Below, in pieces: positions 1-39,450 of a stretch of 39,450 nucleotides of DNA. Source of the stretch: Pseudoclavibacter sp. AY1F1 (GTDB taxonomy: Bacteria; Actinomycetota; Actinomycetes; Actinomycetales; Microbacteriaceae). The stretch spans positions 1 through 39,450 of the forward strand of contig NZ_PSTQ01000020.1 in assembly GCF_002931075.1 (NCBI RefSeq), read 5' to 3'. How positions within the stretch are numbered: position 1 is the stretch's first letter; every line of letters begins with the position of its first letter. The notes below the pieces were generated by a model. The model did no database searches. It was not told the origin of the DNA and was given only the letters and a program-made list of their open reading frames with translations. Made by a program: the position numbers and the translations under genes.

Positions 1-1
1 G

Positions 2-10023: not shown

Positions 10024-10027
10024 TCAA
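9976..10027 (-). terminator. possible terminator of export cassette A
   Basis: Minus-strand RNA forms a 7-bp stem (TTGACAC, 10001-10007, with GTGTCAA, 10021-10027) enclosing a smaller alternative ACACG/CGTGT stem. A U-rich run follows about 20 nt later at 9976-9980. The upper part overlaps the stop codon of the ABC gene. Moderate structure only. Confidence 0.35.
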
Positions 10028-21000: not shown

Positions 21001-21334
21001 CCAGGCCCGAAACGACGTCAACGCAGACCCACGCCGAGGCGAAGGGCCAGCGGTCGAGGAGATTGACGCTCTCCAGATCCAGGCGAATGCCGCGCGCGTG
21101 CTCGAGCGAGAAGCAACGAAGGCGTCCATGCCAGAGCTGCGCAAGCTCGACGCGATCCAGGCCGAGCGCACCACCCGCGAACGGATCCTCGACGCGTCCA
21201 CCGCAACGCGAGAGCATCACGAACGATTGCTGACTGCGCGGCACGGCCGCGTTCAGCGACCGGTTGACGTGCACGCTACCCAGTCAGTCGGTATCTCAAA
21301 GAGACTCGGCGAGACCGCTGGGCCAGCGTTGTGA
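17999..21334 (+). CDS. MobF conjugative relaxase with TraA/RecD-like helicase
   Basis: A 1111-aa protein that should nick and unwind the element for conjugation. The relaxase domain spans roughly residues 39-330, with the histidine triad H215-A-H-T-H219 (PHAHTHMW) and a candidate catalytic tyrosine Y84. The helicase part has Walker A GPAGAGKTT (532-540), motif II DEAGM (638-642), GDPAQVNPV (about 666), STIHGIQGET (from 867) and YVGLTRGK (about 892). A charged coiled coil precedes the C-terminus, which ends RPVDVHA (21257-21277) then 18 residues to AGPAL. The first ~38 codons are a translation of purine-rich DNA, so GTG 18095 or 18113 (VRGGV, matching related relaxase starts) may be the true start; ATG 17999 has AGGGAG just upstream. 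Transcription converges with the ASCH operon. Confidence 0.92.
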   Translation: MSEEDEGNGERKGDGHEERKDVRDVRHAGTSSVSYAHSVRGGVARWKRGVAGHGLRAAVHYAFDGVCDGARADRLASVDAAIGYAHAGSTVTRFTATEAGIAADELGVEQLKAWVAGSDPVTGMHRGYQMQGPDADLLFDATVNAPKTLSLAAMLDPEIAAAFDALQERIRDRTIDMWRTELNARRGAQGRISMDLAQIEVVELKHARSRSLDPHAHTHMWLNARVLGQDGRWSNLDSRTMLRFQTLVNAEGQLAAVTDTEWVATLAAKGFTIDPATGEVEQLQHLVRAFSKRANQIEAAKTRFLAEWRADHPGQEPTVNDQMAIDRRAWAVGRPEKPDMVSEEDWADSVRRELTDLDSALLKQRKPVTPPVTDRAVRVFASDIDRVARLAIADADSRSTSSSGRFSDFTLRAGAVRAVARVVATGDRDVLAAAVDAALDRARGHYLIDLAADSIDVPGGVGRYMLTETATLKRDVDEGMKAQAKRGKNVATHLIDQLASNTKIGGEHGLDEQQTAAACAIAGSSRLVTVIGPAGAGKTTMLKVARASLSGQGRKVLIVAPTKKASSVAGRETGADATSLHALLYQYGFRWSADKDTGRPVWQRLAIGQKDPMSKDGHVYRGPKESAVVDRKTRIVVDEAGMVDLHTMHALLQVTAETGAGIALVGDPAQVNPVGHTGAMALGQRYADTHVDLESVHRFRTEEGKTDTAYANLTLRMRAGDAPDEVAHELVTTGHVRTAATMTELHAAMRDRYLELAGHKDRAALCVATNEEAVTLNDLIQEERIVRGQVTGKVLASATDGSVIYAGDVVQTRQNDSDQNVENRQVWTVRKKTLTGKLLLESVDQKGLTTSIDADYAADKLALAYASTIHGIQGETVHGSIVGPGVDAAGLYVGLTRGKRVNEAFLVATDDATAERQLVESLRRGDLEASLQDNYRALHRELGISAREGVFAPAAWQQRPAGHLLDLDAAEAQISPKHTHDELQIIKDDADRLEDELRKLRQARNDVNADPRRGEGPAVEEIDALQIQANAARVLEREATKASMPELRKLDAIQAERTTRERILDASTATREHHERLLTARHGRVQRPVDVHATQSVGISKRLGETAGPAL

Positions 21335-21503
21335 CGTTGAGGGACCTGCTACACGATAAGCGGCGCGCTCTCCGCTCTGAGAGCACGCTCACCTGCGTAG
21401 CTGAGGACAATATTTACCTGGGACGCTGCCCCGTCTTGCGGATGCGCAAACGCGCCTCTGGACCACCGGTGTCGTCACACCGCTCAGCGCAGAGACGCGA
21501 TAC

Positions 21504-21944
21504 CTACTCGATGGGTGCCTTGGCACCAGCCAGCCGGGACAACTCGATTTCTGCCTCTGCGGGCAGGTATCGGAAGCTCTGCGACGGCTCAATGCCGACT
21601 TCCTCGCGGAGCTGTTGTAGGTTCACCGGCTCGGTGAAGCGGGTGACACGGCTGGTCTTGATTGCGACACCGTGGGTCAAGTTGTGGAAGTACGTGTCGT
21701 ACTCCACTGTCTCGATCCCGAGTTGAGGCTGGAGAGTCTTCCAGAGCTCTTTCACGGAATCGTAGCGAACCTCGTCCGACTCGAAACTGCCCAAAACAGC
21801 TTTCACGGGGCTGCTTGCGTAGAGGTACACGACCGTGCCCCGCTCGAGGTCCGGGAATCTCCGGCGGAGCTCGTAGGTCTTCGTCCCGTTGAGGATGCTC
21901 TCAGCGAACTTCGGTCGGATCGACAACAAGACAGGTCTGGTCAA
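21504..21944 (-). CDS. ASCH-domain protein
   Basis: A 146-aa protein with an N-terminal ASCH (PUA-related) domain. It opens LLSIRPKFAESILNG and carries the family signature GxKxxExR (G20, K22, E25, R27), followed by VVYLYASSPVKAVLGSF. ASCH domains are predicted RNA-binding or RNA-processing modules. The C-terminal ~60 residues are unassigned. Its ATG overlaps the stop of the large GNAT-PIN gene (ATGA), so the two are made together. Possible roles: antitoxin or regulator for the PIN protein, or a shared RNA-targeting partner. Confidence 0.85.
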   Translation of the reverse strand: MTRPVLLSIRPKFAESILNGTKTYELRRRFPDLERGTVVYLYASSPVKAVLGSFESDEVRYDSVKELWKTLQPQLGIETVEYDTYFHNLTHGVAIKTSRVTRFTEPVNLQQLREEVGIEPSQSFRYLPAEAEIELSRLAGAKAPIE

Positions 21945-23995
21945 GATGCTCCGTTCGAGAGTTCGATGAGGTCGAGGAATACGGACCGAAGGACTCGACG
22001 CGGCGACTGGGGCGGGTTTCCGCTTACACCGTGACGAACAGTGACCATCCTAAAGTCCGCCAGCGACACTGGGCGTCTGAACACTTCAGTGTCTTCAAAC
22101 TCGAGCACATGCACGACCCCGTCATGTGACGCTCTGTCGAGATCGCTCCGTTTGTAGGTGCCCATGTGAGAAAAACGCTCGTGCGCCTGGTCCACCGCCA
22201 TGTCGCGGGACGCGACGAGCCTCGAGAGAGCGAACACCCGCGACACTTGCGCACGCCCATCGCTGGAGCAGTACCAGAGGAGCCGCGCCGGTACATCTTG
22301 AATCGGATTGTTCCGGGGCGACCTGAAGTACACGTGCCGGCGTGCAAAACCGAGCGATTCCCGCTGCTCGAGCAAGTTCTCGGGAAACCCGAACAAGTTC
22401 ATCGAGAACTCGGGCTTGATGGGCACGAGGAAGACACTCGTGTCATCCCAAATTTTGAGCGGCCAGTGAGCACGCTCCAGCTCAGCGACCGCGCCCGGGG
22501 TTAGCATCCGCAGTGACTCCGCACGTTCATTGCCAAGGAGAGACGCAAGCTTGGCTCGATCGTCATCAATCAGGAGGTCGATCTCCGCGACAACGACAGC
22601 TGCGCCGATCGCACCATCCACGTCACGGAACCCGTCCGCTTCGAGAGCTTCCCTGACCTCACGAGACAGATGCTGGTCGGTGACAGCCACGGACGAGATT
22701 GCAGCGGCGACTGCCGATTCTCGGATCTGTCTCGTCAGTTGCAGAGCAAGGTCAGCGGAGCGGGCGCCGCGCTTTACTCGAACCTTGTGGAAGTTGATAC
22801 GGTCCGGTGACTCGCTGAAAACCAAGAGCCCGACGTCCTCGTTTTTCCGAGACTGCAACACTCTGACTTCATAATCACGGCTTGCGAGCGAGGCCTCCAG
22901 CTCGCGTCGAAAGTCCTTAGCACGTTCTCCCGTGCTCGCGTTGACGAACAGCCGCTCCAGACCGTCGATCGATGACGCGGCTCCGCTACCCAAGCGCAAG
23001 ACTCGCGAGAGGTGCTCTGGTTGGTACCAGGAAGCGGGTTCCGGCGCGTGAACATGCAGAACCACTTCATGGGGTTTCATCACGTGAAGCTCGTGTGCCG
23101 TCTTTAGATAGTCCTTCAGAAGGCGTATGAGGTTCACATCGTTGGTGACGAAGTAGGTCGCGTCCGCGTTTACGGCGTCGGCAAGATGTCGAACATCGAC
23201 CGCCAAACTCGGGTCTGCCTGCCACTCCGTTTCTCCGATCCGCGCCCGAAGCTCGGTTTCGATCTCTATGGATCGCGGGCGTCGCGTCCCCACCCGGGCG
23301 AGGTGAGCTGCGCCGACACGCTGCGCGGCGCGCTCTGCTGCTTCTTCGAGAGCGTTGAGTTCAAGGTCGACGGCGGGTGAGATCGCGACCGCCAGATACT
23401 CCTGGAGCCAGTCGGCCATCAGCGCCTGCGAAGCTTCCCGATTTGGTCGTTGCACCGATGACGTGGCGACCAGGTCGATAACGACGTTGGCATCCAGGAC
23501 TGCAAGTGGACGAGCCGACTCGAACGCTAGGTTCTCGAAAAGATCCGGGCCGCCGAGCGGCCGCCACCAGATATCCAGGGGTTCGCCCAACAGGCCACGC
23601 CCTGGGCGTTCATTGCGTGGGCTCATGCCCATCGATTCCCAGAACCCGTGAAGCCCGTAGCTTCTCCGACAATGCGCCTCAACTCCAGCGCTGTTCGGAT
23701 TAGCCAATATGACTTCATCGAGCATCCGGAGGGCCAGCGACTGCCCTCGATGCGAGTCCGCCACGCAGACGTGCAAGAGCTTGATATGTGCACGCTTGCG
23801 GTTGTAGAGCAGGTAACCGGCGAGTTCCAGCCCTTGGTACGCGAGCACCAGCCACCCGCGTTCAGCTCGCTCTCTGAACGCAGAGTCCGGGAGGAAACCC
23901 AACGTTCGCTTGTGCTTCTTGTGAAGAACAAGCACATCCCGCATTTGACGCTCGCTGTCTGGCGAAGTGGCGCTCCATGCGCTTATCAAAATCAA
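21941..23995 (-). CDS. GNAT-PIN multidomain protein with C-terminal PUA-like region
   Basis: A 684-aa protein. Residues about 20-127 are a GNAT acetyltransferase (LAGYLLYN, then HVCVADSHRGQSLALRML as acetyl-CoA motif A, ending GFWESMGM). Residues 163-295 are a PIN-type ribonuclease domain with D168 (VLDANVVIDL), E212, D267 or D273, and D286 (FVTNDVNLI), so the acidic set looks complete. Residues 300-560 are unassigned. About 575-665 (LLWYCSSDG...VSRVFALSRLV...FEDTEVFRRPVSL) resembles a PUA/ASCH-like RNA-binding fold. TTG 23995 opens the frame; ATG 23944 is an alternative that still covers the GNAT core. RNA cleavage combined with acetylation suggests a translation-targeting toxin or defence effector. 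Confidence 0.8.
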   Translation of the reverse strand: MILISAWSATSPDSERQMRDVLVLHKKHKRTLGFLPDSAFRERAERGWLVLAYQGLELAGYLLYNRKRAHIKLLHVCVADSHRGQSLALRMLDEVILANPNSAGVEAHCRRSYGLHGFWESMGMSPRNERPGRGLLGEPLDIWWRPLGGPDLFENLAFESARPLAVLDANVVIDLVATSSVQRPNREASQALMADWLQEYLAVAISPAVDLELNALEEAAERAAQRVGAAHLARVGTRRPRSIEIETELRARIGETEWQADPSLAVDVRHLADAVNADATYFVTNDVNLIRLLKDYLKTAHELHVMKPHEVVLHVHAPEPASWYQPEHLSRVLRLGSGAASSIDGLERLFVNASTGERAKDFRRELEASLASRDYEVRVLQSRKNEDVGLLVFSESPDRINFHKVRVKRGARSADLALQLTRQIRESAVAAAISSVAVTDQHLSREVREALEADGFRDVDGAIGAAVVVAEIDLLIDDDRAKLASLLGNERAESLRMLTPGAVAELERAHWPLKIWDDTSVFLVPIKPEFSMNLFGFPENLLEQRESLGFARRHVYFRSPRNNPIQDVPARLLWYCSSDGRAQVSRVFALSRLVASRDMAVDQAHERFSHMGTYKRSDLDRASHDGVVHVLEFEDTEVFRRPVSLADFRMVTVRHGVSGNPPQSPRRVLRSVFLDLIELSNGAS

Positions 23996-24251
23996 AAACT
24001 CACGCCCCCACGAAAACTCGCCTGTCAGCTCGGAGTCTATGCGCTGTTTGGTGCTTCACGACCCGGTTCATGTCGCGAAGTCAGTGTCGTTCCTCCCACT
24101 CATAGAACTGTCCAACGTCCTCGGTCGGGCGCTCGAGGATGCCATGCTCGCGCTTGCGCGGAGCGCAGTGGGGGCCCTCGACGCGCCCCATTCGCCGGAG
24201 CACACTTATCCCTTTCCTCTCGCCAGCACCGGCCGACGGGGAAGCACTCAG

Positions 24252-24734
24252 CTAGCAGTTGACGGTCCTTGCGGTTCCAGAGACGTTTTTCTGCGTTCCG
24301 GGGGTAGCGGTGGCAAGCACGGTGCTCCCGTTCCGCGCGCGCAGGGTTTCAGATGTCCGCCCGTTTGCGATCGAGCGCACGGACCCGAGCGCGGCGGTGG
24401 AGTGCGTGCCGCAGGACGACCAGGAGAGCTTCGATCCACTCAGACTTGACCCACTGTATGCGCACACGTTGCCGCTGGCGCAGGAGCCCACAGCTCGCTG
24501 TCGGTCCCGCGACGGGGAGGCGCTAGCTTCCTCGGAGAGGAGCGTCATACCAAGATCTGGCCAGTAGGCGGTGTGCTCCCCGGTCGCGTGCCCTCCCGGT
24601 ACCGCATCCAGCGCGTAGGTCACGATCTCGTCCACATCGACAACAGTCGTTTCTGCCTGCGCTGCTGGAGCGCCAACGAACAACATGAGCAGTGCAAGGC
24701 TGCCTGCGAGTGTCGCGGTGTGTCGTGCTGTCAT
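24252..24734 (-). CDS. second secreted I36-like protein, end of cassette B
   Basis: A 160-aa secreted protein: signal peptide 1-27 (AQA|ET), a pro-like segment to about 80, then a compact domain with four cysteines (85, 91, 108, 160). GNVCAYSGSSLSGSKLSW followed by SVRSIANGR resembles the I36/crystallin-like pattern of the cassette A protein. It overlaps the anti-sigma stop as ATGA and is the last gene of the seven-gene operon. It may be the exported effector, or a protective inhibitor produced together with the peptide. Confidence 0.75.
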   Translation of the reverse strand: MTARHTATLAGSLALLMLFVGAPAAQAETTVVDVDEIVTYALDAVPGGHATGEHTAYWPDLGMTLLSEEASASPSRDRQRAVGSCASGNVCAYSGSSLSGSKLSWSSCGTHSTAALGSVRSIANGRTSETLRARNGSTVLATATPGTQKNVSGTARTVNC

Positions 24735-25765
24735 GGTGTCGTCTCCCAGATGGTGTAGGCGGTTGTGGCGCCGGCTGGAATATCTCCCCAGTCGGTAGTT
24801 CGGAGGGTTTCGAGACCTACGACTCGCCCGGTTTCGGTAGAGATCAGCAGGACGTCGCGGTTGCCGCTCGTCGAGTCCGCGGCGATCCCGATCACGGGCC
24901 GTCCGGCACGGTCAGTTGTGGTGCCGTACACCCTGACGTCGGGCTGGCTGAGCAGGATCTCGAGGAGTGCCCCGTGTTGACGGTCAGTGAGTGTCCACAC
25001 GGCTAGAAGTCCCGAGATGGCTTCGATGACCTCGAACCCTGACGCCTGTGGAGTTCCGCCGTATTCCTCAAGCGCTTCCCGCAGCTGGGCAGGTGAGTCG
25101 CCTGGGAGGGTGGTGCTCGTTGGGACGTCGTACTCCCCCGCAGCGTAGATCTCATCGACAATCACGGTGCCCGGGGCCGGGGCATCTTCTGGGACGAGCT
25201 GCGGTGCTTCCACACTCTTATAGGGGACGCCCGCCGTGAGTGTAAATCGGCCAGACCGGTCTTCCCCCCAGCTCAACTCGGCGACCTGCGGGCTGATAGC
25301 AGTACTCGTGTCCTCGTCCCCCTCGGTGTACTGCAAGTACCAGCCAACGGAGCGTGCATATCGCTGCGCTTCGGTGACTGCCGGGTTTGCCGTGAGCTTT
25401 TCAAAGAGCATGGTCCGGACTTCCTGGTGCGTGAGCTCAGTGGGCTGGAACTCCAGCGGCGGTGGGGTACGCGCTGCGGCGGTGTTGGTCGGCGTCATCA
25501 TGAGACCGACTATGACGAGCAGTACAACGACGCTTACCGCGACCCGGGTGAAGATCGGCGTCGCTGTGCGCTGCAGAAGTACCCAACTCCCGGAACGCGT
25601 TCGCGACGGAGTGGATGGTGTCTCTGCAGCGCGTCGCGTTGCGGGTGTGGCGATGATGCGAGCGAGGAGCGCTTGGTGCCGCGGGGCGAGTTCGCCGTCT
25701 TCAGCGCCTCTGACCGGATCGAGTTCTCCCATCATCGTCTCGAGGCGGCGTTCCTGGTCGGTCAT
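24731..25765 (-). CDS. putative membrane anti-sigma factor (CU044_5270-like)
   Basis: A 344-aa single-pass membrane protein. The acidic cytoplasmic N-terminus (1-70, with MMGELDPVRG) resembles CU044_5270-type proteins commonly encoded directly after ECF sigma factors. The transmembrane helix is at about 72-91. A large extracellular domain (100-344) ends in a beta-rich part (LLISTETGRVVGLETLRT). It lacks the HxxxC of zinc anti-sigma factors. It overlaps the sigma gene by TGATG and the I36-like gene by ATGA. The extracellular domain could sense the exported product, which would close a feedback loop. Confidence 0.75.
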   Translation of the reverse strand: MTDQERRLETMMGELDPVRGAEDGELAPRHQALLARIIATPATRRAAETPSTPSRTRSGSWVLLQRTATPIFTRVAVSVVVLLVIVGLMMTPTNTAAARTPPPLEFQPTELTHQEVRTMLFEKLTANPAVTEAQRYARSVGWYLQYTEGDEDTSTAISPQVAELSWGEDRSGRFTLTAGVPYKSVEAPQLVPEDAPAPGTVIVDEIYAAGEYDVPTSTTLPGDSPAQLREALEEYGGTPQASGFEVIEAISGLLAVWTLTDRQHGALLEILLSQPDVRVYGTTTDRAGRPVIGIAADSTSGNRDVLLISTETGRVVGLETLRTTDWGDIPAGATTAYTIWETTP

Positions 25766-26295
25766 CAGCGGGCCTTCTTCATCGCGGATCGTTGCAAAGG
25801 TGCTTGGTCAGTGGTGTCGGAGAGTGCGTGACGCAGACGTTTCCGTGCGCGACTCAATGTCGTCCACGCGTTGGGTGTGCTGCACCCCAGGACTTCTGCG
25901 ATCTCAGACGCGTTCAGCCCTTCCCAGTAGTGAAGGGTTATGGCCTCTCGATCGCGGTCGCCGAGGAGGAGTAAGGCATCGCGCAGCGAGAGCAGGTCGA
26001 GGGGGTCGGCGGTGTGGCCCGGCTCCTCATGGAGACGCGTCAATGCGATTTGAACCGCCTCTTTTCGCTCGTCACTGCGGTAACGGTCGGCGATCTTGTT
26101 GGCGGCCACCCGGTACAGCCATGGCAGCTGGGGGCGTTGGCCTTCGGACCAGCTCTGCCAGGCTGCCGTGAAGACCTCTGCTGCGATGTCTTCGGCGAGT
26201 GCGAGTGTGGGGAGCCGGCGTTGCGCATACTTGAGGATCTTGGGGTGGTTGATCGTGAAGAGTGCCTCGAAGGTGTCGGGGTCAGCTGTCAACAT
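25765..26295 (-). CDS. ECF-family RNA polymerase sigma factor
   Basis: A 176-aa sigma-70-family factor. Region 2 spans about 9-76 (FEALFTINHPKILKYAQRRL ... LPWLYRVAANKIADRYR). Region 4 spans about 104-158 (LGDRDREAITLHYWEGLNASEIAEVLGCS, then a recognition helix). There is no extended C-terminal domain. The ATG lies within the last 14 nt of the ATPase gene, with GAGG just upstream, so it is translated with the transporter. Placement of a sigma factor inside the operon, followed by its probable anti-sigma factor, points to autoregulation of the export cassette. Confidence 0.92.
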   Translation of the reverse strand: MLTADPDTFEALFTINHPKILKYAQRRLPTLALAEDIAAEVFTAAWQSWSEGQRPQLPWLYRVAANKIADRYRSDERKEAVQIALTRLHEEPGHTADPLDLLSLRDALLLLGDRDREAITLHYWEGLNASEIAEVLGCSTPNAWTTLSRARKRLRHALSDTTDQAPLQRSAMKKAR

Positions 26296-26974
26296 GCGGC
26301 CTCAGCGTCTCTTCATCCACGAGGCCCAGTCCCTGGATGCGGAACCGGCGTTGGCATCTCTCTGCAACGCGTTCGCTGTGTGTAGCAACGATCAGGACGG
26401 CCCCTTGCTGCTGCAGGGTGTCGAAAACGTCGAGGATGCGATCTTCGGTGTCTTCATCAAGCGCCCCAGTCGGTTCGTCAGCCAAAATGAGGGCTGGCTT
26501 CTTGACGACGGCGCGGGCGATGGCCACGCGTTGCGCTTCGCCTCCGGAGAGCCTCCCCACACGCCGCGCCGCGAGTGCCTCGATGCCAACCACACGCAGC
26601 GCGTCGAGCGCGGGCGCGCGATAGGCAGACTTGGTGGAGCCAAGCCCCAGCATGACGTTTTGGAGCACGGTGCGCTCTCTCAGGAGGTCGTAGCTCTGAG
26701 TAATGATGCCGACATGGGTTCGTCGGAACTCCGACATCGCGAGCTCGTTTCGGCGCAGTTCTTCGCCCGCAAAGCTGTAAGTCCCCCCGTACCGGACGTC
26801 GAGACCGGAGAGGATGCGCAACAGTGTGCTCTTCCCGGACCCGCTACGACCGAGGATGGCCGCGGAGCGGATGTCGTCGGGAAGGGTCAGGCTGAGATCT
26901 GCAAAGATGGGGCGCGACTGTCCGTCTGCTTCTGTGATGTTCTTCTCGACGCCGCGAAGAGTGACCGAGGTCAT
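26282..26974 (-). CDS. ABC transporter ATPase (LolD/MacB-type), bacteriocin-export group
   Basis: A 230-aa ATP-binding subunit: Walker A GRSGSGKST (42-50), signature LSGGE (142-146), Walker B LILADEP (162-168) and H199 (THS). Length and sequence style fit the LolD/MacB subfamily, including the ATPases of the lactococcin 972-type bacteriocin export group. It has no membrane segment of its own and is coupled by ATGA to the 425-aa permease. It should energise the two permeases. Confidence 0.9.
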   Translation of the reverse strand: MTSVTLRGVEKNITEADGQSRPIFADLSLTLPDDIRSAAILGRSGSGKSTLLRILSGLDVRYGGTYSFAGEELRRNELAMSEFRRTHVGIITQSYDLLRERTVLQNVMLGLGSTKSAYRAPALDALRVVGIEALAARRVGRLSGGEAQRVAIARAVVKKPALILADEPTGALDEDTEDRILDVFDTLQQQGAVLIVATHSERVAERCQRRFRIQGLGLVDEETLRPHVDS

Positions 26975-28248
26975 GCTGAGGCTCCTACCTGTGTGAATCG
27001 GGATGTGCCGAGCGCGGTCGTGCAGCCGAGATCAATCGCTGCGAGCGCAGCCAGGATCCACGGAATGCTGGAAGAGGCGACGGAGTCGTACGTTGGGAGT
27101 GCGTTGTAGAGGAGATGCAACGACACGGCGATGCATGCCCACTCGACCAGCACCATTGAGGCGAGGGACAGCTGCAGTGTTCCGCGGGATTGACCGAGAG
27201 TCCAACGCAGGCGCAGCGCCACGAGTCGTCGCCGCAAAGCGAACGCGCTGATCGCGAACACCAGCACGGTCGCCACGATGCCGACCAGCACTTGAAGCAT
27301 CCCCATGAGGCCTGCATTGCGTTGCAGCAATTCTCGAGTCATGGAGAACTGCGTGAGGTACTGAGGGACGTCGATCATTGCGTAGTCAGTGAAGCCGGTG
27401 TCTCGTGCTGCACGGTCGATCGTGTTGAGGACCTGGTCTGGGCTGTCTGTCTTGGGCGCGGCGACGTCGCTGTTCAACATCGCGAACGCCAGCACTCCAT
27501 CAAAGAACGGCGAGTCGCGGTCCTGTGAGTCCATCTCCGGCGGGTACGGAACGAGCATTGTGTCGTCGAGGAATGTGTTGATGTCGCCCTTGTAATACAT
27601 GGACGAGCCCGCGGGGAGAAGGCCGGAAACCTGGAAGGTGAAATCGCGAGAGTAGAACTGAGCGTCGAGTACATCACCGACCTCGTACACACCAGCGTAC
27701 CCAGCACCCAACAGGACTGGGATGACCCCACTGTCGTAGTCGATGGCTTCCCAATTGGGGACAGTACCCTGTTCGACGTCGAGCCCCGCAAATTCGAACG
27801 CGTGCTTGTTCATCTGCACGGCGCGCACATCTCGCACGGTTTTCCGGCTCACTTCGTCAACGTACTCCCCCGGCGCCAGCGTTTCCGCACCCAGCCATGC
27901 ATCGAATTCGTCTCCCCCACGGAAATCTGCCACAACGATCGGCTGCGCGAATGCGGAGATTAGCGTGAGCTCTTCCGAGGTGTTGAGCGTGTTGTAGAAG
28001 TCAGCGACCTTCGCCATCTCCTCGGGATCTGCCCGGACGCGTTCGAAAGCCCCATCGTCGAGAAAGGTGTCCGTGATGCTGTAGAGATTCTGCTCAGCAT
28101 CCGCGGGAAAGCTCGAACTCATCGCGTTGTCCGTCGATTCGAGGAAACTCATCGTGCTGTATACGCCCGTCAGGAACAGGACGACAATGGCACATTTGAC
28201 TGCGATGAGGAGCCAGTTCCGGCGAACATCAAACACGTTCTCACTCAT
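26971..28248 (-). CDS. FtsX/MacB-type permease 2 of cassette B
   Basis: A 425-aa membrane protein. The frame is open 84 codons further upstream, but ATG 28248 overlaps the previous stop as ATGA and starts directly before the first helix (LLIAVKCAIVVLFLTGVYS). A ~240-residue extracytoplasmic domain follows, then three C-terminal helices from about residue 300 (MLQVLVGIVATVLVFAISAF, and two more) with LRLRWTLGQSRGTLQ, the FtsX-like inter-helix motif. This is the 1+3 helix layout of MacB/FtsX permeases without a fused ATPase. It probably forms a heterodimer with the 332-aa permease. Confidence 0.8.
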   Translation of the reverse strand: MSENVFDVRRNWLLIAVKCAIVVLFLTGVYSTMSFLESTDNAMSSSFPADAEQNLYSITDTFLDDGAFERVRADPEEMAKVADFYNTLNTSEELTLISAFAQPIVVADFRGGDEFDAWLGAETLAPGEYVDEVSRKTVRDVRAVQMNKHAFEFAGLDVEQGTVPNWEAIDYDSGVIPVLLGAGYAGVYEVGDVLDAQFYSRDFTFQVSGLLPAGSSMYYKGDINTFLDDTMLVPYPPEMDSQDRDSPFFDGVLAFAMLNSDVAAPKTDSPDQVLNTIDRAARDTGFTDYAMIDVPQYLTQFSMTRELLQRNAGLMGMLQVLVGIVATVLVFAISAFALRRRLVALRLRWTLGQSRGTLQLSLASMVLVEWACIAVSLHLLYNALPTYDSVASSSIPWILAALAAIDLGCTTALGTSRFTQVGASA

Positions 28249-29243
28249 ACGCGGACCCGCCCAACGCGAAGGACCGTCACAATCAAGGAGACCAACGCCA
28301 CCAGATAGAGCGTTCCCACCGCGGCACTGAAAGGCCCTAGTAGACGCCAAGAAGGAGCCCCCACCACCGCAATGGCCGCCACAGCCGTCACCATCACCGC
28401 GGCGCACCACACCAAGGACACGGACGCGACACGACGCGTGAGCCGGCCAGGGTGACTTTGACCCCAGAGACGAAGCACTTGGTCCCGACCTTGGCTCCAC
28501 TGCGCAGAGAGGTATCCCGTCAACGCGGCTCCGAGGATCAGGAGTGCTGCCGCGAGTCCAAGCACGATAGGAGTCACGTAGTCGACGTTCGTCCTCCGCG
28601 AGAGTCCTGCGTCGACATACCTCGCGCCTTCGATGGTGGCACCGACCAACTCTGCATCGCGTCCGTCCACCACGAATGACCGCGGATCATGCGCCTCGAA
28701 CAGCGCAGGGTCGTAGATGAGGATGTCATCGGCAACGAGGCTGCGATCGGACGTACCGAGACGCCCCGCAACTTCGTACCGCTCAGCGAACGCTCCAGCG
28801 TCCAGCATCACAGCACTCTCAGCGTGCGCAGCGCCGATCATGGCCCCGGGCCGCTCGTCACTGACAGTCCATCGCAGGTCATGGATCGGGAGAAGGTCGG
28901 AAATGGGCTCTCCGGTCGAAACCACGCCTCGGAGATGCGGGTCGTCGGCGAGCTCGATGTAGATCTGCACGTCCAGGCCGGAAGCTCGTGCGTCGGTTAA
29001 CGTCGCTGCAACATCGCCCGTCATCACCATCGCCCGCCCGGAGTACAGCGCGTTCGATTCGCGCAGCACAGCAGCTTGTGCAGCCTGGAAAGACAACGCC
29101 GCCAAGGAAAGCAAGGTGAGACACAACGTCATGACTACAAGCGACACGGTGGATCTGAGACGCATACGGAACGCTTTCGGAAGAAGATCGAGCAGGCAGT
29201 CGGGGCACGGAGACGCATCAGGTTGCGTCTCCGTGCGCACCAT
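28245..29243 (-). CDS. FtsX/MacB-type permease 1 of cassette B
   Basis: A 332-aa membrane protein: first helix at about 31-57 (VSLVVMTLCLTLLSLAALSF), extracytoplasmic domain of about 165 residues, then three helices in the last 110 residues (PIVLGLAAALLILGAALTGYL and two more) with an FtsX-like VLRLWGQSHPGRLTRR loop. It is smaller than its neighbour, mainly in the outer domain. The ATG follows the peptide gene's TAA with no gap (TAAATG), so translation is likely coupled. Confidence 0.75.
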   Translation of the reverse strand: MVRTETQPDASPCPDCLLDLLPKAFRMRLRSTVSLVVMTLCLTLLSLAALSFQAAQAAVLRESNALYSGRAMVMTGDVAATLTDARASGLDVQIYIELADDPHLRGVVSTGEPISDLLPIHDLRWTVSDERPGAMIGAAHAESAVMLDAGAFAERYEVAGRLGTSDRSLVADDILIYDPALFEAHDPRSFVVDGRDAELVGATIEGARYVDAGLSRRTNVDYVTPIVLGLAAALLILGAALTGYLSAQWSQGRDQVLRLWGQSHPGRLTRRVASVSLVWCAAVMVTAVAAIAVVGAPSWRLLGPFSAAVGTLYLVALVSLIVTVLRVGRVRV

Positions 29244-29654
29244 TTACTGACCGTAGAAGGTGTACGCGGTTCCTGGGCTTACCAGGTCCCCACCGACGAC
29301 CCGGAACGGCTTCCACGCCGTCACGGCCTCTGTGCCGCCTCGACCGTAGACCCTGTTGGAATCGGCGTTGATAGAGCTGCCCGACTTCAACTGGGCGCGA
29401 GTGTAGTGGTAGACCCCCGACCACGTCGTCCACCCGTGCGAGCGCTTGTTCGTGGTCCCGTTGATGGACTTCTGCTCCGCAGTGCCGCGGTGGTTGACCT
29501 GGGCAGCGCGTGCGCCCGGCTCCACGGACGACGAGGCAACATTCCCATCGACCTCACTCCACCCCAGCGTCTCTGCACTCGCTGTCGTCGCCATGCCGCC
29601 TACGAGTGTCACCGTGGCCGCGACGACGAGTAATCCTCGAAGAGTCTTCATCAT
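29244..29654 (-). CDS. secreted peptide precursor, lactococcin 972-like export substrate
   Basis: A 136-aa precursor. Signal peptide 1-27 (LVVAATVTLVGGMATTASA). The mature ~109 residues have no cysteines and are rich in Gly, Ser, Thr and aromatics, with HGWTTWSGVYHYTRAQL, NADSNRVYGRGG and a C-terminal AYTFYG, the general character of lactococcin 972-group peptides. That family is likewise encoded upstream of dedicated ABC genes. Two adjacent ATG codons (29654 and 29651) follow a GGGATAAGGGA ribosome-binding region; the frame is open further but that part is not plausible. It is the first gene of cassette B. A bacteriocin or signal peptide is the best guess. Confidence 0.65.
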   Translation of the reverse strand: MMKTLRGLLVVAATVTLVGGMATTASAETLGWSEVDGNVASSSVEPGARAAQVNHRGTAEQKSINGTTNKRSHGWTTWSGVYHYTRAQLKSGSSINADSNRVYGRGGTEAVTAWKPFRVVGGDLVSPGTAYTFYGQ

Positions 29655-29949
29655 TCCCTTATCCCTGAGGGCCGTTCGTGGTGCTCGCGCGTGTTGACTC
29701 GCGCAAACCAGACTGCTCCCTGCAGCCGACCGACACGTCACACAAGCCAACGTGCCCCACCCCTCGCATCGTTTGTCGCCTGCCGGGCCGATTCCTGACA
29801 CTGGATTCAAAAGTTCTTAATCGGCAATTGCGTCAAAGAGGCGAACTTAGATCGTCGGGGTCGTGCACCACACAGAGGCGAGATACCGATTCCGTCCTAG
29901 CAGCTGCGCGAGAGCTTCCTGCCGTTGACGGAGCCCCACTATCTTCTTC
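29655..29949. promoter_or_regulatory. upstream region of cassette B
   Basis: These 295 bp hold no gene. They must carry the promoter for the seven-gene cassette. A TTGACG (minus strand, near 29840) is the only -35-like site, without a good -10, which would suit recognition by the operon's own ECF sigma factor, but no pair of boxes can be assigned. Confidence 0.3.
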
Positions 29950-30381
29950 CTACCGGTTGAGGAGTGATCCTCGGAGGCGTTGGCCACCCCGGGCTCGGCA
30001 TGATTCCTGCCCCTGATGGAGCACGCGATGCTGGGACTCCCATTCGCGGAGCACTTGCCATGGCAGTGTCAGCGTTGGCCACACGCGCTCGAGTCGCTGC
30101 GCGTTGATCAGCTCGACGACATCCGCCTGCGTGCCCTCGTTCAAGATTGCCGTGTAGGCGTCAGCGGCTTGGTTGTCGTCAGTGATTTCGAAGTCGCGGT
30201 TCGGCCCCCAGTAGAGGGCGTGCGAGAGCGTCAGGACTCCTGATGCTGGCCCGCGGAGCTCGCGCAGGTCATCGACCACCGCGTATGGGCGGAAGTCCCT
30301 GACGTGTACCTGCTGATCGGCGTTCACGCGCTGATCGTATCCAACCGACACGGATAGGCCCAGGACGCCGCCACGACTCAT
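29950..30381 (-). CDS. hypothetical protein
   Basis: A 143-aa protein of unknown family. Residues 1-110 look like a mixed alpha/beta domain (VHVRDFRPYAVVDDLREL, GVLTLSHALYWGPN, ADVVELINAQRLERVWPTL, LPWQVLREWE); the tail is basic. No catalytic motif or membrane segment is visible. Its ATG overlaps the stop of the upstream membrane-protein gene, so the two are coupled. Confidence 0.7.
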   Translation of the reverse strand: MSRGGVLGLSVSVGYDQRVNADQQVHVRDFRPYAVVDDLRELRGPASGVLTLSHALYWGPNRDFEITDDNQAADAYTAILNEGTQADVVELINAQRLERVWPTLTLPWQVLREWESQHRVLHQGQESCRARGGQRLRGSLLNR

Positions 30382-31226
30382 GAGCTGACTGACCCCGCTC
30401 TCTTCTCACGCACCTCCGAGGGCTGTGAGTCCTGAAGTGCCGCTTCGAGCGTCGGATAGAACTGCACGGCAGGCCAAGGCCTGGTTTCATCGTGCTCGGT
30501 CGGGGCGAACTCCACTCGCGGTGCGTCCCTCTCCGGCAAGTCCGCACCCGGTGCGGGTGCGGCCTCCGGGATCTGGACGGCGTACTTCGCGTCGCGGGCA
30601 CGTTCTTTCTGCTCCCGCCGTTCGGCGCGCTGCCATTGCCGGTCCTCCCGGGCCTCCCGGCGCGCGCTGCGCCGGAGCGCTCCCCAGACCCAGAACGGGA
30701 GGCGCGTGAGGACTTCGTTCACGTAGAGCACGTTGGAGTCTCCCCAGTGGCGTCCGCGACCGTACTCGCCTCGCACCAGGAGCACGTCTCCCCGCGTGGG
30801 CCATGCCTCCGCAAACCACGATGACGAGTCGTCCCCGTGCACGTCCTTCACGGAGTAGCGCGAGCCGGTTGGGTACGCCCCTTCGAGGCGTCCCACCCGC
30901 ACAAGCCTGGCGTCCGAGGGGCAGAGACGCGTGACGGACTCGAGGTAGTCGAGTTTGGCTTCGTCGCTCGCGAAGTACCCCCACCGGGATCCGCCGCGCA
31001 TCCACCAGATGGCGACCTCGCTGACGACCGCGCACACGAGCGCGGCCGCGCCGAATCCGGCGAGCCACCATCCAAGTGTGTCTCGCAGCACGTCGACCAC
31101 GGTCCCGCCGACCAGCCACGCCAGCAGGGCCAGGGCAGCGAGCAGCGTGCCTGCCACGACGGTGGCGCGTCCGCTCGCCCATCGCAGCGAAGACCATGTG
31201 ATCAACGGTTCCCCCTGAGTGTCCAT
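30378..31226 (-). CDS. membrane protein of unknown function
   Basis: A 282-aa protein with two transmembrane helices (about 20-42 and 50-72), a cytoplasmic domain containing RWGYFASDEAKLDYLESVTRL, LVRVGRLEG and DVLLVRGEYGRGRHWG, and a highly charged helical segment (about 190-225, RREAREDRQWQRAERREQKERAR) followed by an acidic, proline-rich tail. It starts at ATG 31226 without a ribosome-binding site, six bases after a TACAGT hexamer. First of a two-gene unit lying between cassette B and the methylase operon. It may belong to the transfer apparatus, but nothing proves it. Confidence 0.75.
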   Translation of the reverse strand: MDTQGEPLITWSSLRWASGRATVVAGTLLAALALLAWLVGGTVVDVLRDTLGWWLAGFGAAALVCAVVSEVAIWWMRGGSRWGYFASDEAKLDYLESVTRLCPSDARLVRVGRLEGAYPTGSRYSVKDVHGDDSSSWFAEAWPTRGDVLLVRGEYGRGRHWGDSNVLYVNEVLTRLPFWVWGALRRSARREAREDRQWQRAERREQKERARDAKYAVQIPEAAPAPGADLPERDAPRVEFAPTEHDETRPWPAVQFYPTLEAALQDSQPSEVREKRAGSVSS

Positions 31227-31232
31227 GACGAC

Positions 31233-31238
31233 ACTGTA
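31233..31238 (-). promoter_or_regulatory. candidate leaderless -10 box for 30378-31226
   Basis: Minus-strand TACAGT, six bases before the ATG, matches the spacing expected for a leaderless transcript. The -35 (CTGCGA at 17 bp) is weak. A hairpin terminator just upstream makes an independent promoter necessary here. Confidence 0.35.
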
Positions 31239-31271
31239 GGAGTCAGCACCGACATTCGCAGCCAACCGACA

Positions 31272-31308
31272 ACGCGGCCCCGAAACCGGGGTGGTTTGGG
31301 GGCCGCGT
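31272..31308 (-). terminator. terminator of the methylase operon
   Basis: A 10-bp stem (31272-31281 with 31299-31308), one G-G mismatch, then a further 5-bp AAACC/GGTTT stem with a 5-nt loop. It sits 57 nt after the stop of the 374-aa gene and before the next operon's start, so it closes the methylase operon. Confidence 0.75.
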
Positions 31309-31364
31309 GTGGTTGTGCGACTGCACCAGCGATCGCGCAGCCGGCGCGTGGGCGCGCACAACCT

Positions 31365-32489
31365 CTACATGGACGCTCCCGCCTGCTCAGGGACCGGCGC
31401 GACGGCCTGGGTCCGCACGTCGTTCGTGAAGCGGATTCCCTTCGACGCCTGGGCCAGCTTGTCGAGGTCGAGGAGTCGCGTCGCTCGGTACAGATCCTCG
31501 GCGCGCGCAAACGGTGCACGGAGCACCTCGCGGAGGCGGTCTGATTCGGCCTCGTCCTGACGTAGCAGCTTGTTTCCCATGGCGATGCCACGCGCGGGCA
31601 TGTTCAGCTCGAACTGGAGGATCCCGTACCCGCGCGCGTTGCGCAGCGTTTCCTGCTGAGATGCTTCTCGCCGCTCGATGCGATCGTTGTTCTGGACCAG
31701 CGCGAGCCGCGAAATGCTGGTCTTGTGCGCGTACGCGCGGAACTCCTGCGACAGGGCTCTCATGGTGGCGGTCACAGGTGCGACTTCCGGCACCCGAGAG
31801 ACAAGGTAGGCCGCGAGTCCTCCTCGAGCGCGTTCCTCCTGCATCACGTGCGCGTAGGTCGACCAGGGTGTTCCCTCGGGGTGGTCGCGGCCGCTCGAGA
31901 AGCGGACGAGCCCGTCGAGGTCCGAGCACTGATACGTGTCGAGTTGGCGCAGGAACCGCACGCTCTGCAGCTCCGCCTGGTACTCAAAGTCGAGGTCAGT
32001 GAGCATGAGTGCCTGCGTCTCTCGCTTGGCGATCGCGTATGCCCCGGGGCGGGGCCGTGCGGGGTTGGTGGGTGGCAGGGTGTGCAGGGTCCGTTCGCCG
32101 TGCGTGAATTGCTCGATGCGGAGCTCGTGGCGCAGATGCAGCAGTTGCTCTGTGGGCATGCCGCCTTCCCGCACCGACTGCCGAAGCTGAACAGGGAGCG
32201 CTTTTCGTGAAGGGTCGTGCCTGGGGTAGCGGGACTCGAGCCAGATGGGAACTGCGAGGCGCAGTGCGCGGCGTCCGGCGCTGCGCTTCACGTCCGTGAG
32301 GTCTCCCGTCTGACCTCTGCGCGCAACGTACTCGACGGCGTGCGCTCGCATCTCGCGGGTCGCGCTCCACGCGACGTGGTGCAGAAAGCGATCTTGGTCC
32401 TCGACGTGGTCGAAGCCCTCGACGGCAGGTCCGTCGGTGAAGTAGCTGCGCACCGTGCGTTCGACGGCGGCGTTGGCTTTCGTGATCAT
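31365..32489 (-). CDS. hypothetical protein with relaxase-like C-terminal tail
   Basis: A 374-aa soluble protein of unrecognised family, mostly helical and rich in Arg, Glu and Ala; blocks such as VEDQDRFLHHVAWSATREMR and DRLREVLRAPFARAEDLYRA look like helical bundles. ATG 32489 is used; it lies 11 nt after the stop of the 420-aa gene with GAGAG upstream. The C-terminus reads APVPEQAGASM, close to the PVSGPAGASI end of the methylase-helicase, but lacks RPxDxHA. Last gene of the four-gene operon, closed by a hairpin. A translocated companion of the methylase is a plausible role. Confidence 0.75.
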   Translation of the reverse strand: MITKANAAVERTVRSYFTDGPAVEGFDHVEDQDRFLHHVAWSATREMRAHAVEYVARRGQTGDLTDVKRSAGRRALRLAVPIWLESRYPRHDPSRKALPVQLRQSVREGGMPTEQLLHLRHELRIEQFTHGERTLHTLPPTNPARPRPGAYAIAKRETQALMLTDLDFEYQAELQSVRFLRQLDTYQCSDLDGLVRFSSGRDHPEGTPWSTYAHVMQEERARGGLAAYLVSRVPEVAPVTATMRALSQEFRAYAHKTSISRLALVQNNDRIERREASQQETLRNARGYGILQFELNMPARGIAMGNKLLRQDEAESDRLREVLRAPFARAEDLYRATRLLDLDKLAQASKGIRFTNDVRTQAVAPVPEQAGASM

Positions 32490-32500
32490 CAGCGGTTCTC

Positions 32501-33763
32501 TCAGAGACTCGCCACGGCGGCGTCCGCGCCCGACGTCCAAGTTGTCGCCCTATTGGCGGAAGCGGCATGGACGTCGGCAGGCCTCGTGAAGCGCCGGTCG
32601 AACGCCTCGGTACGGAACACTTCGCGCGCGTACTCGAGTTTGTGGCTTTCCCAGTTCGAATCGAACGCATCCGGTGCACCGGATTCGACACTCCAGAAAT
32701 CTTCGAGGTCCGGACGCAGCGCGGGCGCGGTGAAAGTGCCAAGATCGACTTCCTCCCTAATCGCGTCCAGGAGCTCGGCGGGAGTGAGGCGCTGCTGGTC
32801 GGCTCCGGGCGCGACGTGCACGTACGTCAACAGATCGCGGAGTTGGTCGATGCGTTCCGGACGGATGGATCGCAGCGCTGCAACCGCCGCTCGCGTTGCG
32901 GGATCCGCGTCGCGCTGGAAGGTCTGCACGGTGTGCTGTACGAAGCCGTGGTCCAGCGTCGCTGTGGTCGTGGCCCGCAGCGCATCCGGCATCCGCTCGG
33001 CTATCTCGTGGCCCGGGTTCGCGCGGTTGTACAGGTGGGTGCGGAGCCGGAAACGGTCGCCCACTTCGTTGCGACCGGCGTACATCTCGGACTCTCCGGC
33101 CTCCTCAAGGTCCGAGCGATCGAGCTGCGGCGGTGTGGATGGCGTCTCGAAGGTTCCAGCCGCGATCTCCTGGGTCATGACACGCACTGTTCCGTCCCAC
33201 ATGGGCGAGCCCCACGCATGTTTCGCTCCGTCGGGGCCGAGGGCCGCGACGATCAAGTCCTCCGTATAGGCAAGGCTCTGCCCGTCGAGTTTCCGCAGCT
33301 GCTCCATCGCCGCTCGCTGCTGCTGGTGGTCGTCGTTGAGCTGTTCCCGCGACGTGGCGATGTCGCCGGTCACGAGAAACACGGGTTGGTTGGTCTCCCA
33401 CTGAAAGTTGTCGTACGCCTCCAAGGCACGCAACCGCATCGGAGTGGGAGCGGCCGTGATCGTGTCCGAGAGCGGGATGAAGAACGTTTCGGCCTCTACG
33501 ACGCCCTTGGCCTTCTCGAGCTCGGGAGGAGCAACGCGCGTCATCACCTCCGGAAACACCACTCGCTCGACGCGTGTGCGCAGCTCCCGGGTGGGCCGAG
33601 CGAGGTCATTGACGGCTATGAACTCCACGTCGCCTTTCACGACCTTGGCGATCTCCGCGGCGTACTCGTTGATGAGCCGTTTCGGATCGTTCGTGCGCTT
33701 GAGGACTGTCGGCGCGTGGGTGGTGAGGTACTGTTCGACCGCTTTGCGGCATCGACGGCTCAT
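32501..33763 (-). CDS. hypothetical protein with RPADVHA C-terminal motif
   Basis: A 420-aa soluble protein of unknown family. The N-terminal ~200 residues are alpha/beta (DVEFIAVNDLARPTRELR, WETNQPVFLVTGDIATS, SLAYTEDLIVAALG), and the C-terminal half is mainly helical. AAAGGA lies 6 nt before the ATG. It is 11 nt downstream of the methylase-helicase. The last 27 residues contain RPADVHA (32564-32584) and end AVASL, the same layout as the relaxase and methylase tails, so it may be secreted through the conjugation channel. Confidence 0.75.
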   Translation of the reverse strand: MSRRCRKAVEQYLTTHAPTVLKRTNDPKRLINEYAAEIAKVVKGDVEFIAVNDLARPTRELRTRVERVVFPEVMTRVAPPELEKAKGVVEAETFFIPLSDTITAAPTPMRLRALEAYDNFQWETNQPVFLVTGDIATSREQLNDDHQQQRAAMEQLRKLDGQSLAYTEDLIVAALGPDGAKHAWGSPMWDGTVRVMTQEIAAGTFETPSTPPQLDRSDLEEAGESEMYAGRNEVGDRFRLRTHLYNRANPGHEIAERMPDALRATTTATLDHGFVQHTVQTFQRDADPATRAAVAALRSIRPERIDQLRDLLTYVHVAPGADQQRLTPAELLDAIREEVDLGTFTAPALRPDLEDFWSVESGAPDAFDSNWESHKLEYAREVFRTEAFDRRFTRPADVHAASANRATTWTSGADAAVASL

Positions 33764-33774
33764 GAGGATTCCTT

Positions 33775-36700
33775 TCAGATGGACGCGCCAGCGGGGCCGC
33801 TGACGGGTCGGGTGTGGGTGTGGTCGGCGTGGATGTCGACCGGGCGAGCGGGACGCTCTGCGGGGGTCTTTGGCCTGGCTGCTTCACGGGCCAGCTCCTT
33901 GTTGAGGGCCTGGAACTCGGCCCACTTGTCGCGCAGCTCGTCAGCTCTCCGGAACGGCAGACCGATGCGCTCCTCCGCTTCGTTGGCGACTCGGTGCTTC
34001 TCGTCGCGGTCGAGGCGGCGCTCGGCCAGCCCTGCAGGGATCGCTGCAACGCGGTTGGCGAGACGGGTGACCGCGCCTTCCGGGCTCTGCAGGAACCGCT
34101 CCGCGTCGGCGTTGATCTCGCTGCCTGGGACGTCCTGCAGCTCCAGGTACACGAGCTGCTTGCCGTACTCGCGCCCGCGCGACGCGAGCACAGTCATGCC
34201 GCTGAGCTCTCCCACGGCCGCGCGCGCTGACGACGTGCTGTACCCGCCACGCCCCTGCGGGATCCCACCGCGGTGGAAGAGCCGCACGAGCTGCTGGCCC
34301 GCTTCGGTGCGCTTCGAGAAGGTGCCTCGCCCGATCGTCATCGTGAAGCGATCGCCGTCGAGTTCACGTACGTGGGGCAGTGCTGCCTCGAGCTGTTCAA
34401 TCTCCCGCTCGAGCCGTGAGACGCGTGCTCGCGCGTTGTCGACGGTCATGCGCAGCGTGGCCTGGGACTGGGCGTGTGCTCGCTCGAGGCGGCGCAGTTT
34501 CGTGACGTCGGTGCGCAGCTGCGCGTGCTGCACAAGCTTCGGATTGCCCGTCGCCAGCGCCTTCGCTTCACCCGCTTCGAGTTCGGCGGTGCCGATGTCT
34601 TCGAGGTCGCGCACGCGGGCGTCGCCGCGCATGGCTTGCGCGATGAAGCGACCTTTCTGCTCCTGCTTTTGCCACATGAATGCGTCGAAGGAGTGCGACG
34701 TCGCGTACCGGTAGTGCTGCACGACGTCGTTCTGGTTGCCCTGGCGCATGATGCGTCCGGCCCGCTGCTGCAGGTCGGATGGGCGCCAGGGGCAGTCGAT
34801 GTCGTGGAGCGCGATCGCGCGGCGTTGCACGTTCGTGCCGACGCCCATCGTCTCCGTCGACCCGAACAACACCGACACCTGCCCGTCCCGGGCTGCTTTA
34901 AAGAGCGCCGCCTTCTTGGCGCTGCCTTTCGCGTCCTGCACGAACGCGATCTCAGACCGGGGCACGCCCGCGGCCGCGAGCCGGTCGCGCATCTTCTCGT
35001 ACACGGACCATCCGCGGTCTTTGTTCGGAGTGCCGAGGTCCAGGAACACGATCTGCAGCGCACCCTTGTGCGCTGCCTCGTTCCCGGTGTCGGGATCCGC
35101 GTACGAGTTCCCGGCGTTGTCCCGGTAGATGCGGGCGATGTTCTCCACGGCGCGGTCGATCTTCGTCTCGGCCCCGTCGTCGGAGAGGCCCACGAGTTCC
35201 GCGTCCAGCGCGGCCTTGCGGCCGTCGGAGCTGATGCGGAGCATGTTGTCGCTCTTATCTGCACGGGTGAGCTTGTCGATGCGGACGCGCAGCTCCCCGA
35301 TGTACTCCCGCACGGCGGGAGAGGCCGGGACGATCACCATCTCGGGGCGGGCCTGCCCCTTGCTGTTGAGCGCGAGCTCGGGAGTGGGGAGGTTCAGGTC
35401 CGCGGCGGTCTTGACGTCGCCAGCGACTCGCCAGAGGCGCAGCATTTCGGGCAGGTTCTTGAACCGACTCAGACGCGTTTTCGTCTTCATGCCACCCGCG
35501 ACGTCGACTTCCATCTCCGTGTGCAGCTCCCCGAAGGTCGCCGCCCACGCCTCGAAGTCGTGCACGCCCGCCTCCTCCAAGAGGTCGGGGCGCAGGTAGC
35601 GCTGCATCGTGTACGCCTCGACCAGCGAGTTCGAGAGCGGTGTAGCCGTAGCAACGGTCGCGATGCGACCCGTTTCGCTCGTGGCGCGCAGCAGCTCCAT
35701 CTTCATGTGCAGATCGGTCGCACGACCGGCAACTTGAGGAATGTTCGCGCCCGAGAGCTTGCTGCCGATCGCGAGGCCCTTGAAGTCATGCATCTCGTCA
35801 ACGACGAGGTAGTCGATGCCCATCTGCTCGAACGTCGCGACACCGTGGTCTCGCACGAACGGATCCTGCTTCGCGATCGTCTGTTCGAGCTTGCTGCGCG
35901 CGTCCTCGGCTTCCTTGACGGTCATAGCGCCGGACTCAACAGCCCGGTCGAGGTACGAGGACTGGACCGTGAGCTCGCGGCGGCTGTAGGTGTCCTCCCA
36001 CTCGGGCGAGACGGGGATGCCTTTGAACGCGGTGCGGGTCATGATGATTGCGTCCCACGGATTCGTGACCGCTCGCGCCACGAACTTGCGACGATTCTCC
36101 TTCGTCACATCTCCCGAATCGGCAGCGAGAACTCTGGCGGATGGGTAGAGCTGGAGCCATTCCCGGGAGAACTGCTCGAGCATGTGGTTCGGCACCACCA
36201 CGACGGGCTTGGTGACAAACCCGAGGCGGCGCAGCTCCATCGTGCCGATCACCATCTCGGCGGTCTTGCCCGCCCCGACTTCGTGGAAGAGCCCGACCGT
36301 GGGCTCCGCGATCATGCGAGCGACCGCCGCCCGCTGATGTGGGTGCGGGGTGAATGTCTCGGCCAAGCCCGGCAGCTGCAGCGCCTGCCCCTCCGTGGAG
36401 TAATCCCGCAGCGCGATCGCGTTGAACCGCTCGTTGTAGATACCCAGCAGGCGGGACGCGCGTTCTGGGTCGTCGAAGACCCAGTCCTGGAACTTCTCGC
36501 GGATCTCGTCCGCCTTTTCCAGTGCGGCTGCGGTCTCTTCTGGGTTCGGGATCTCGCGACCGTCTGGGTCTCGATCCGTGACTTTGATTTCGCTCATGTT
36601 GAGGAGCGAGCCGAAGAGCTTGCCGAACGGGCGACGGGCCGTGCCGTACTCGTCAGTGTTGGCGACACCGAAGGTGGCTCCCGTGACGCGCCACTCGGAG

Positions 36701-39428: not shown

Positions 39429-39450
39429 CGTCCATCCCTCCCGTTTTGGC

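Follow-up and report, generated by a model that had tools for sequence, protein, structure and literature searches.

A short C-terminal tail shared by relaxases and companion proteins of actinobacterial conjugative elements is a candidate type IV secretion signal

Which proteins travel with conjugating DNA in Gram-positive bacteria is poorly known. One system that bears on it is 89K, which we take to be that of Streptococcus suis. A passage of a 2025 review describes 89K as apparently the first Gram-positive effector translocator of its superfamily and asks whether others export effectors (PMC12857230). The Fic toxin VbhT is fused to a relaxase-derived BID domain and is translocated during conjugation, and translocation has been suggested for a PezT toxin that carries a BID domain (excerpt of PMC5675462). 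The F plasmid translocates SSB (excerpt of PMC8406263), polyvalent proteins of phages and conjugative elements have been treated as accompanying the DNA (excerpt of PMC5512222), and positive charge is a feature of the substrate signals of the Agrobacterium VirB/D4 system (work cited in an excerpt of PMC11288057). Here we analysed a stretch of 39,450 nucleotides from Pseudoclavibacter sp. AY1F1 (assembly GCF_002931075.1, contig NZ_PSTQ01000020.1, positions 1-39,450), hereafter the window, which belongs to a probable integrative conjugative element and in which a MobF-type relaxase and several otherwise unrelated proteins end alike. On the evidence of sequence comparison, this tail probably serves actinobacterial conjugative elements as a C-terminal type IV secretion signal, which the coupling protein of the same element would read and which would have been appended to cargo.

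Three proteins of the window carry the full tail. The relaxase-helicase (1111 aa, 17999-21334, plus strand) ends in RPVDVHA, 18 further residues (...ETAGPAL) and the stop codon (21257-21334). The methylase-helicase (33775-39435, minus strand) ends in RPVDIHA and 16 residues (...GPAGASI; 33775-33846 with the stop), and a 420-aa protein (32501-33763, minus strand) in RPADVHA and 20 residues (...AAVASL; 32501-32584 with the stop). An earlier note on this DNA had listed these three endings, and translation reproduced them exactly; at the DNA level, RP(V/A)D(V/I)HA matched the window at exactly three places, and 100 shuffles gave no match. The same note had added a 374-aa protein (31365-32489, minus strand, counted from its ATG start). 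Its terminus is indeed APVPEQAGASM (EQAGASM and stop at 31365-31388), but it lacks RPxDxHA and so has the terminal half of the tail only, ending AGASM, AGASL or TGASM in three copies. The relaxase matched the Pfam profiles TrwC (2.8e-33, 116 bits) and AAA_30, the SF1 helicase (1.1e-38, 133 bits), which identifies it as MobF, and scored 96.4 bits against the NCBIfam MobF model, just under the cut-off of 100. The methylase-helicase, whose true start sits on contig C18 past the end of the window, matched phrog_10089 (DarB-like antirestriction) over residues 142-1868 with 1298 bits, and is by this profile a DarB-like, putatively antirestriction protein. The 420-aa protein had no Pfam, NCBIfam, PHROG or PADLOC match. 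Plasmid searches with it and with the 391-aa form of the 374-aa protein returned no match, and the predicted structures of the two (mean predicted local distance difference test scores 37.5 and 41.6) were not good enough to search by fold. Adjoining the relaxase gene, a 684-aa protein (21941-23995), by eye an acetyltransferase joined to a PIN domain, has no tail.

As judged from the endings of related elements, the wider-reaching part of the tail is the last five or so residues, which within many elements take a form common to non-homologous proteins. On the Kocuria plasmid L203 the helicase ends in GGLEL, the MobP relaxase in HGMEL and the protein encoded after mobP in RGLELG; the corresponding ends are GGFER, PAFDR and NGLSR in Arthrobacter L213, DLGRGR and DRGRGR in Sinomonas L210, PRV versus PKM or PKI in Cryobacterium L063-L065, and GPSLS and GPSLG in M. 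amylolyticum L009. Over 25 helicase-relaxase pairs, similarity of the last five residues averaged 8.32 within the same element and 2.23 between different elements (permutation p = 5e-5, the floor of the test). The 19 pairs left after dereplication gave 8.42 within versus 2.38 between (p = 5e-5), with p at most 1.5e-4 across the lengths tried. Excluded before this test were L207 (fragmentary relaxase in the annotation), L201 and L208 (stretch without a relaxase) and L067, L075, L114, L124 and L139 (relaxase running off the stretch); dereplication additionally removed L007, L062, L064, L065, L211 and L214. Compared with helicase ends, 410 other annotated proteins from 16 annotated plasmid stretches scored a mean of -0.40, and secretion and maintenance proteins had family means of -2.5 to 2.7. 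Among MobF elements alone (13 elements) the averages were 9.23 within versus 4.33 between (p = 0.004; p = 0.017 for 9 dereplicated elements). The tail therefore sits at the C-terminus of otherwise unrelated carriers, as had been proposed, and is more alike within than between elements. Helicase homologues on phage contigs (58 loci) were considered as a control and dropped uncounted: many were giant proteins with other ends, and relaxases were not sought there. One of them, L142, ends in SPRRL, much like the plasmid helicase end SPRGM.

If the tail is read by a coupling protein, it should be encoded beside one. Contig C18, which overlaps the window, encodes secretion genes and a coupling protein (TraG-D_C 2.9e-19, T4SS-DNA_transf 3e-11) that shares 50% identity with its counterpart on a Microbacterium plasmid, followed in order by SSB, a tagged glutaredoxin and the true helicase start. 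Across 38 elements for which both genes were available, the more alike the coupling proteins, the more alike the helicase tails (rho 0.22, p = 0.0005, the floor), host kinship not being separately controlled. The correlation was kept when the helicase body was held constant (rho 0.19, p = 0.0005, again the floor). Tail similarity also followed the helicase body (rho 0.12, p = 0.017), a relation that vanished once the coupling protein was held constant (rho -0.04, p = 0.74). L007 was absent from this analysis, as contig C18 is common to it and the window. The tail thus appears to track the coupling protein weakly, beyond helicase phylogeny.

The RPxDxHA half has a narrower range. Six-frame translation of all loci fetched (4.76 million residues) gave 19 distinct contexts of the pattern R[PA]xD[VI]HA, of which 11 lay in three elements (the window element, its sister copy and one further Pseudoclavibacter element) on five protein families: three relaxases, three helicases, two 420-aa proteins, two glutaredoxins (one with RAADVHA) and one AbiEii-type nucleotidyltransferase. 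All 11 stood 16-23 residues before the stop. The remaining eight stood 5, 55, 73, 99, 101, 101, 105 and 136 residues before it, none in that range (Fisher 1.3e-5, for a range that was seen before testing and with 14 loci fetched by the pattern itself). RPxDxHA was dropped as a universal motif, since among the loci fetched its place at protein ends is confined to three related elements. Within them, the RPxDxHA codons differ at synonymous sites among the relaxase, the 420-aa protein, the helicase and the C18 glutaredoxin, so the motif has been kept at the protein level and was not recently copied; RP-D-HA is likewise retained between the 420-aa protein and its diverged copy on contig C1, where the surrounding residues have diverged. 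Of ten glutaredoxin matches, only the two from RPxDxHA elements (124 and 128 aa) carry the tail, and the other eight lack the motif (six compact proteins of 82-105 aa and two longer open reading frames). The tail is an extension on just these two, which suggests that it is an added piece. The nucleotidyltransferase (L062 17995-18801, Pseudoclavibacter sp. AY1H1; Pfam AbiEii 3.1e-12) ends in an RPRDIHA tail and is convergent with the relaxase gene. In a scan of the genus, 7 of 10 genomes had a DNA match, with the motif near a C-terminus only in the window genome and in G536. When 297 genomes of the order were scanned with the pattern, 171 had at least one match, scattered and with positions unread, but the reversed control also matched widely. 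A generalised form, R[APS][AVIN][DQ]...TGP, was present in the last 50 residues of 8 of 28 relaxases, as compared with 25 hits among 25,701 internal residues; its carriers are related, and it was kept only as a hint.

The set of tagged proteins resembles one expected to travel with DNA. When 186 conserved clusters from 126 loci were ranked by the similarity of their ends to those of their own helicase or relaxase, the gene after mobP came first (9.9, 17 elements), followed by MobF (9.2), helicase (8.3) and MobP (7.2); the clusters averaged 0.66 with a standard deviation of 2.86. Because helicases and relaxases served as each other's references, the gene after mobP is the sole independent result of the ranking. 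Its product, a protein of 256-410 aa, is conserved in Arthrobacter and Kocuria plasmids (L203 29330-30100, L204 17354-18412, L213 26776-28008), and a Pfam search of these three proteins found no match. In M. amylolyticum L009, TGPVT stands near the end of the helicase, a zeta toxin (6.4e-43), a Fic protein beside VbhA (5.3e-10) and a 320-aa protein; after it the helicase ends in GPSLS, zeta in GPVLR and Fic in GPNL. The zeta gene lies at 18850-19881 and the Fic/VbhA pair at 21898-22873, and both toxins are tailed while the VbhA antitoxin is not. We also count PezT, presumably, as zeta-type. A 40-kb stretch (L026-L027) has like ends on its relaxase, helicase, SSB, tyrosine integrase and a 323-aa protein. 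Of 26 SSB matches, two have canonical EPPF ends, roughly ten look tag-like by eye and the rest are neither; no statistic was drawn. In line with the earlier proposal, the tail thus stands on proteins that would be expected to accompany DNA, namely SSB and the DarB-like protein and, in some elements, integrase, Fic and zeta. Together with the coupling-protein tracking, this suggests that the earlier note was right about the kind of signal but centred on its narrower half, since RPxDxHA, confined among the loci fetched to three closely related elements, does not serve as its general form.

How closely, then, does this tail resemble the signals already described? It shares with BID a C-terminal position, its occurrence on relaxase and on Fic and PezT toxins alike, and its addition to cargo (BID as described in an excerpt of PMC5675462). 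Unlike BID, it is short (about 5-30 residues) and belongs to actinobacteria, and its carriers further include SSB, glutaredoxin and a DarB-like protein. Pfam detected no domain in the tail, and the BID profile found nothing in the window relaxase, helicase, 420-aa and 374-aa proteins, the L009 Fic and zeta, the L026 SSB and integrase, the glutaredoxins or AbiEii. The Agrobacterium VirB/D4 substrates also carry C-terminal, relaxase-associated signals. The last 25 residues of nine tagged proteins of the window lineage had net charges of -1 to +1, unlike the Agrobacterium type, and across all elements +2 was reached by 9 of 28 helicases and 7 of 25 relaxases. The Dot/Icm E-block consists of glutamates around positions -10 to -17 and a hydrophobic end; eight of the nine window-lineage tails have no glutamate and one has a single glutamate, so they are not of this type. 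The F-plasmid conjutome (SSB, ParB, PsiB and others) is similar in that cargo such as SSB accompanies the DNA (excerpt of PMC8406263), but F signals are C-terminal or internal (excerpt of PMC11288057), whereas here relaxase and cargo share one type of end. The window helicase resembles the polyvalent proteins in being DarB-like, but 'secretion signal' has 0 occurrences in the main text of PMC5512222, and the excerpt describes no C-terminal tag. An actinobacterial tail of this kind was undescribed among the matches listed in literature searches on translocation signals, relaxases, Gram-positive conjugation, actinobacterial MobF, VbhT and DarB. A C-terminal type IV secretion signal is thus known as a kind; the sequence, host group, cargo set and within-element code look new.

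Joined, the window and C18 probably make up one integrative conjugative element of about 58 kb. Its integrase lies at 234-1208, and the C18 sequence is probably shared with a second copy. Overlaps of 99 identical bases link contig C18 (18.8 kb) to either end of the window contig and to the beginning of contig C1. The left end of the window (1-99) is the reverse complement of the C18 start, which by eye resembles a tRNA 3' end (a possible att site) and suggests integration at that place; the right end (39352-39450) is the reverse complement of the C18 end, in the secretion module. The assembly seems to break because two element copies share the sequence of C18 (L218), which carries this secretion module. 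By overlap, C14 and C18 close into a circle of about 58 kb, or two elements lie in tandem at the apparent tRNA 3' end. The second module copy, on C1, is 94% identical to the window in the helicase, 74% in the 420-aa homologue and 91% in the relaxase, and a third such element is present in a genome of the same genus (G536, apparently Pseudoclavibacter sp. AY1H1, L062). A looser pattern matched six places in the whole 4.1-Mb genome, three in the window and three on C1, and all six are C-terminal. The C1 element also holds the 374-aa gene a second time, incomplete and split across two reading frames (L007 9655-10301). Two groups of ABC-transporter or efflux-like genes, assigned from translations by eye, lie at 10024-14028 and 26282-29243 of the window.

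Several observations weigh against a transferred-cargo signal. Tail similarity correlates weakly with coupling-protein identity, and the effect within MobP elements is modest (12 elements, 7.33 versus 4.01, p = 0.017). Of the 25 pairs, four scored below zero (L007, L077, L080, L118) and three more only 2, the between-element level (L205, L206, L211); 11 exceeded the 95th background percentile and 8 reached the 99th, with some of the elements related, and relative to other positions in the helicase's last 400 aa the terminal window ranked in the top 1% for 7 pairs and the top 5% for 12. Many SSBs are untagged. So, despite a plausible cargo role, are the window's tyrosine integrase near the left end (234-1208, plus strand; Phage_integrase 2.6e-15; end read from the translation) and a 327-aa protein in the same gene row as the tagged proteins (30378-31361, minus strand). 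Tagging also varies inside families: about 16 of 20 integrase homologues terminate differently as judged by eye, the scores of 4 of 8 zeta homologues do not exceed 0, and the Sinomonas L210 Fic lacks the tail. Finally, the C1 relaxase retains RPVDVHA yet terminates in SSELKT.

Some of these observations recall a functionless convergence, in which Gly/Pro/Ala-rich disordered ends of high-GC genes come to resemble each other. Many tails are of low complexity, and matches are also frequent at internal positions of the proteins that carry them. If this were the whole explanation, the 410 other annotated proteins (from the 16 stretches) should have matched as well, and they did not; within-element matching also persists inside the MobF and MobP groups separately, and the distance from RPxDxHA to the stop is nearly fixed, so that convergence is very unlikely. 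Tails copied between genes by recombination would be expected where tagged genes adjoin, as several do. We consider such relics extremely improbable, since the relaxase, 420-aa protein, helicase and glutaredoxin use different synonymous codons for the motif and the residues flanking it have diverged.

The remaining two explanations give the tail a function other than export. Hydrophobic C-terminal ends are typical of ClpX tags, and common control would be expected for the proteins of one operon, so the tail might be read by ClpX or a similar protease that keeps the element's proteins scarce. That it follows the element's coupling protein argues against degradation, as do the two helicases of Leifsonia sp. 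TF02-11, which have unlike ends (SAGPSLA and TRQIR), and the -ER or -DR ends of several lineages; we hold it to be quite unlikely. Donor-side docking, in which the tail would bind the coupling protein or relaxosome and gather proteins at the donor pore with most of them not exported, would give the same coupling-protein tracking, and relaxase, SSB and helicase could all work on donor DNA. For tagged glutaredoxin, Fic, zeta, AbiEii and integrase proteins, however, no function at the donor pore suggests itself, and Fic and SSB are known cargo elsewhere (excerpts of PMC5675462 and PMC8406263), which makes docking without export unlikely.

We therefore return to the tail as a secretion signal. The signal would be the last five or so residues, small or Gly-rich plus hydrophobic and ending in Arg in some lineages, and in the window element RPxDxHA would precede it about 20 residues upstream. 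The element's own VirD4/TraG-like coupling protein would recognise and dock the tail. The relaxase would bear it so as to pilot the T-strand, and the same signal appended to other proteins would let them enter the recipient alongside the DNA. Proposed cargo comprises the DarB-like methylase-helicase (antirestriction), SSB, glutaredoxin, and the 420-aa and 374-aa proteins, with integrase and Fic, zeta or AbiEii toxins in some related elements; a DarB-like helicase fits a function in protecting incoming DNA. A broader proposal, to which we lean with some reserve, is an address code, in which each coupling-protein lineage reads its own short C-terminal peptide, on MobF and MobP relaxases alike and on the delivered antirestriction, SSB, integrase, redox and toxin proteins. 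If this is true, the protein cargo of an element could be listed from its genome. A readable tail would allow the proteins that accompany conjugating DNA in actinobacteria to be predicted, and may provide a short, portable label with which to deliver proteins from one of these bacteria to another. It would also explain how DarB-like proteins and SSB could guard incoming DNA before gene expression.

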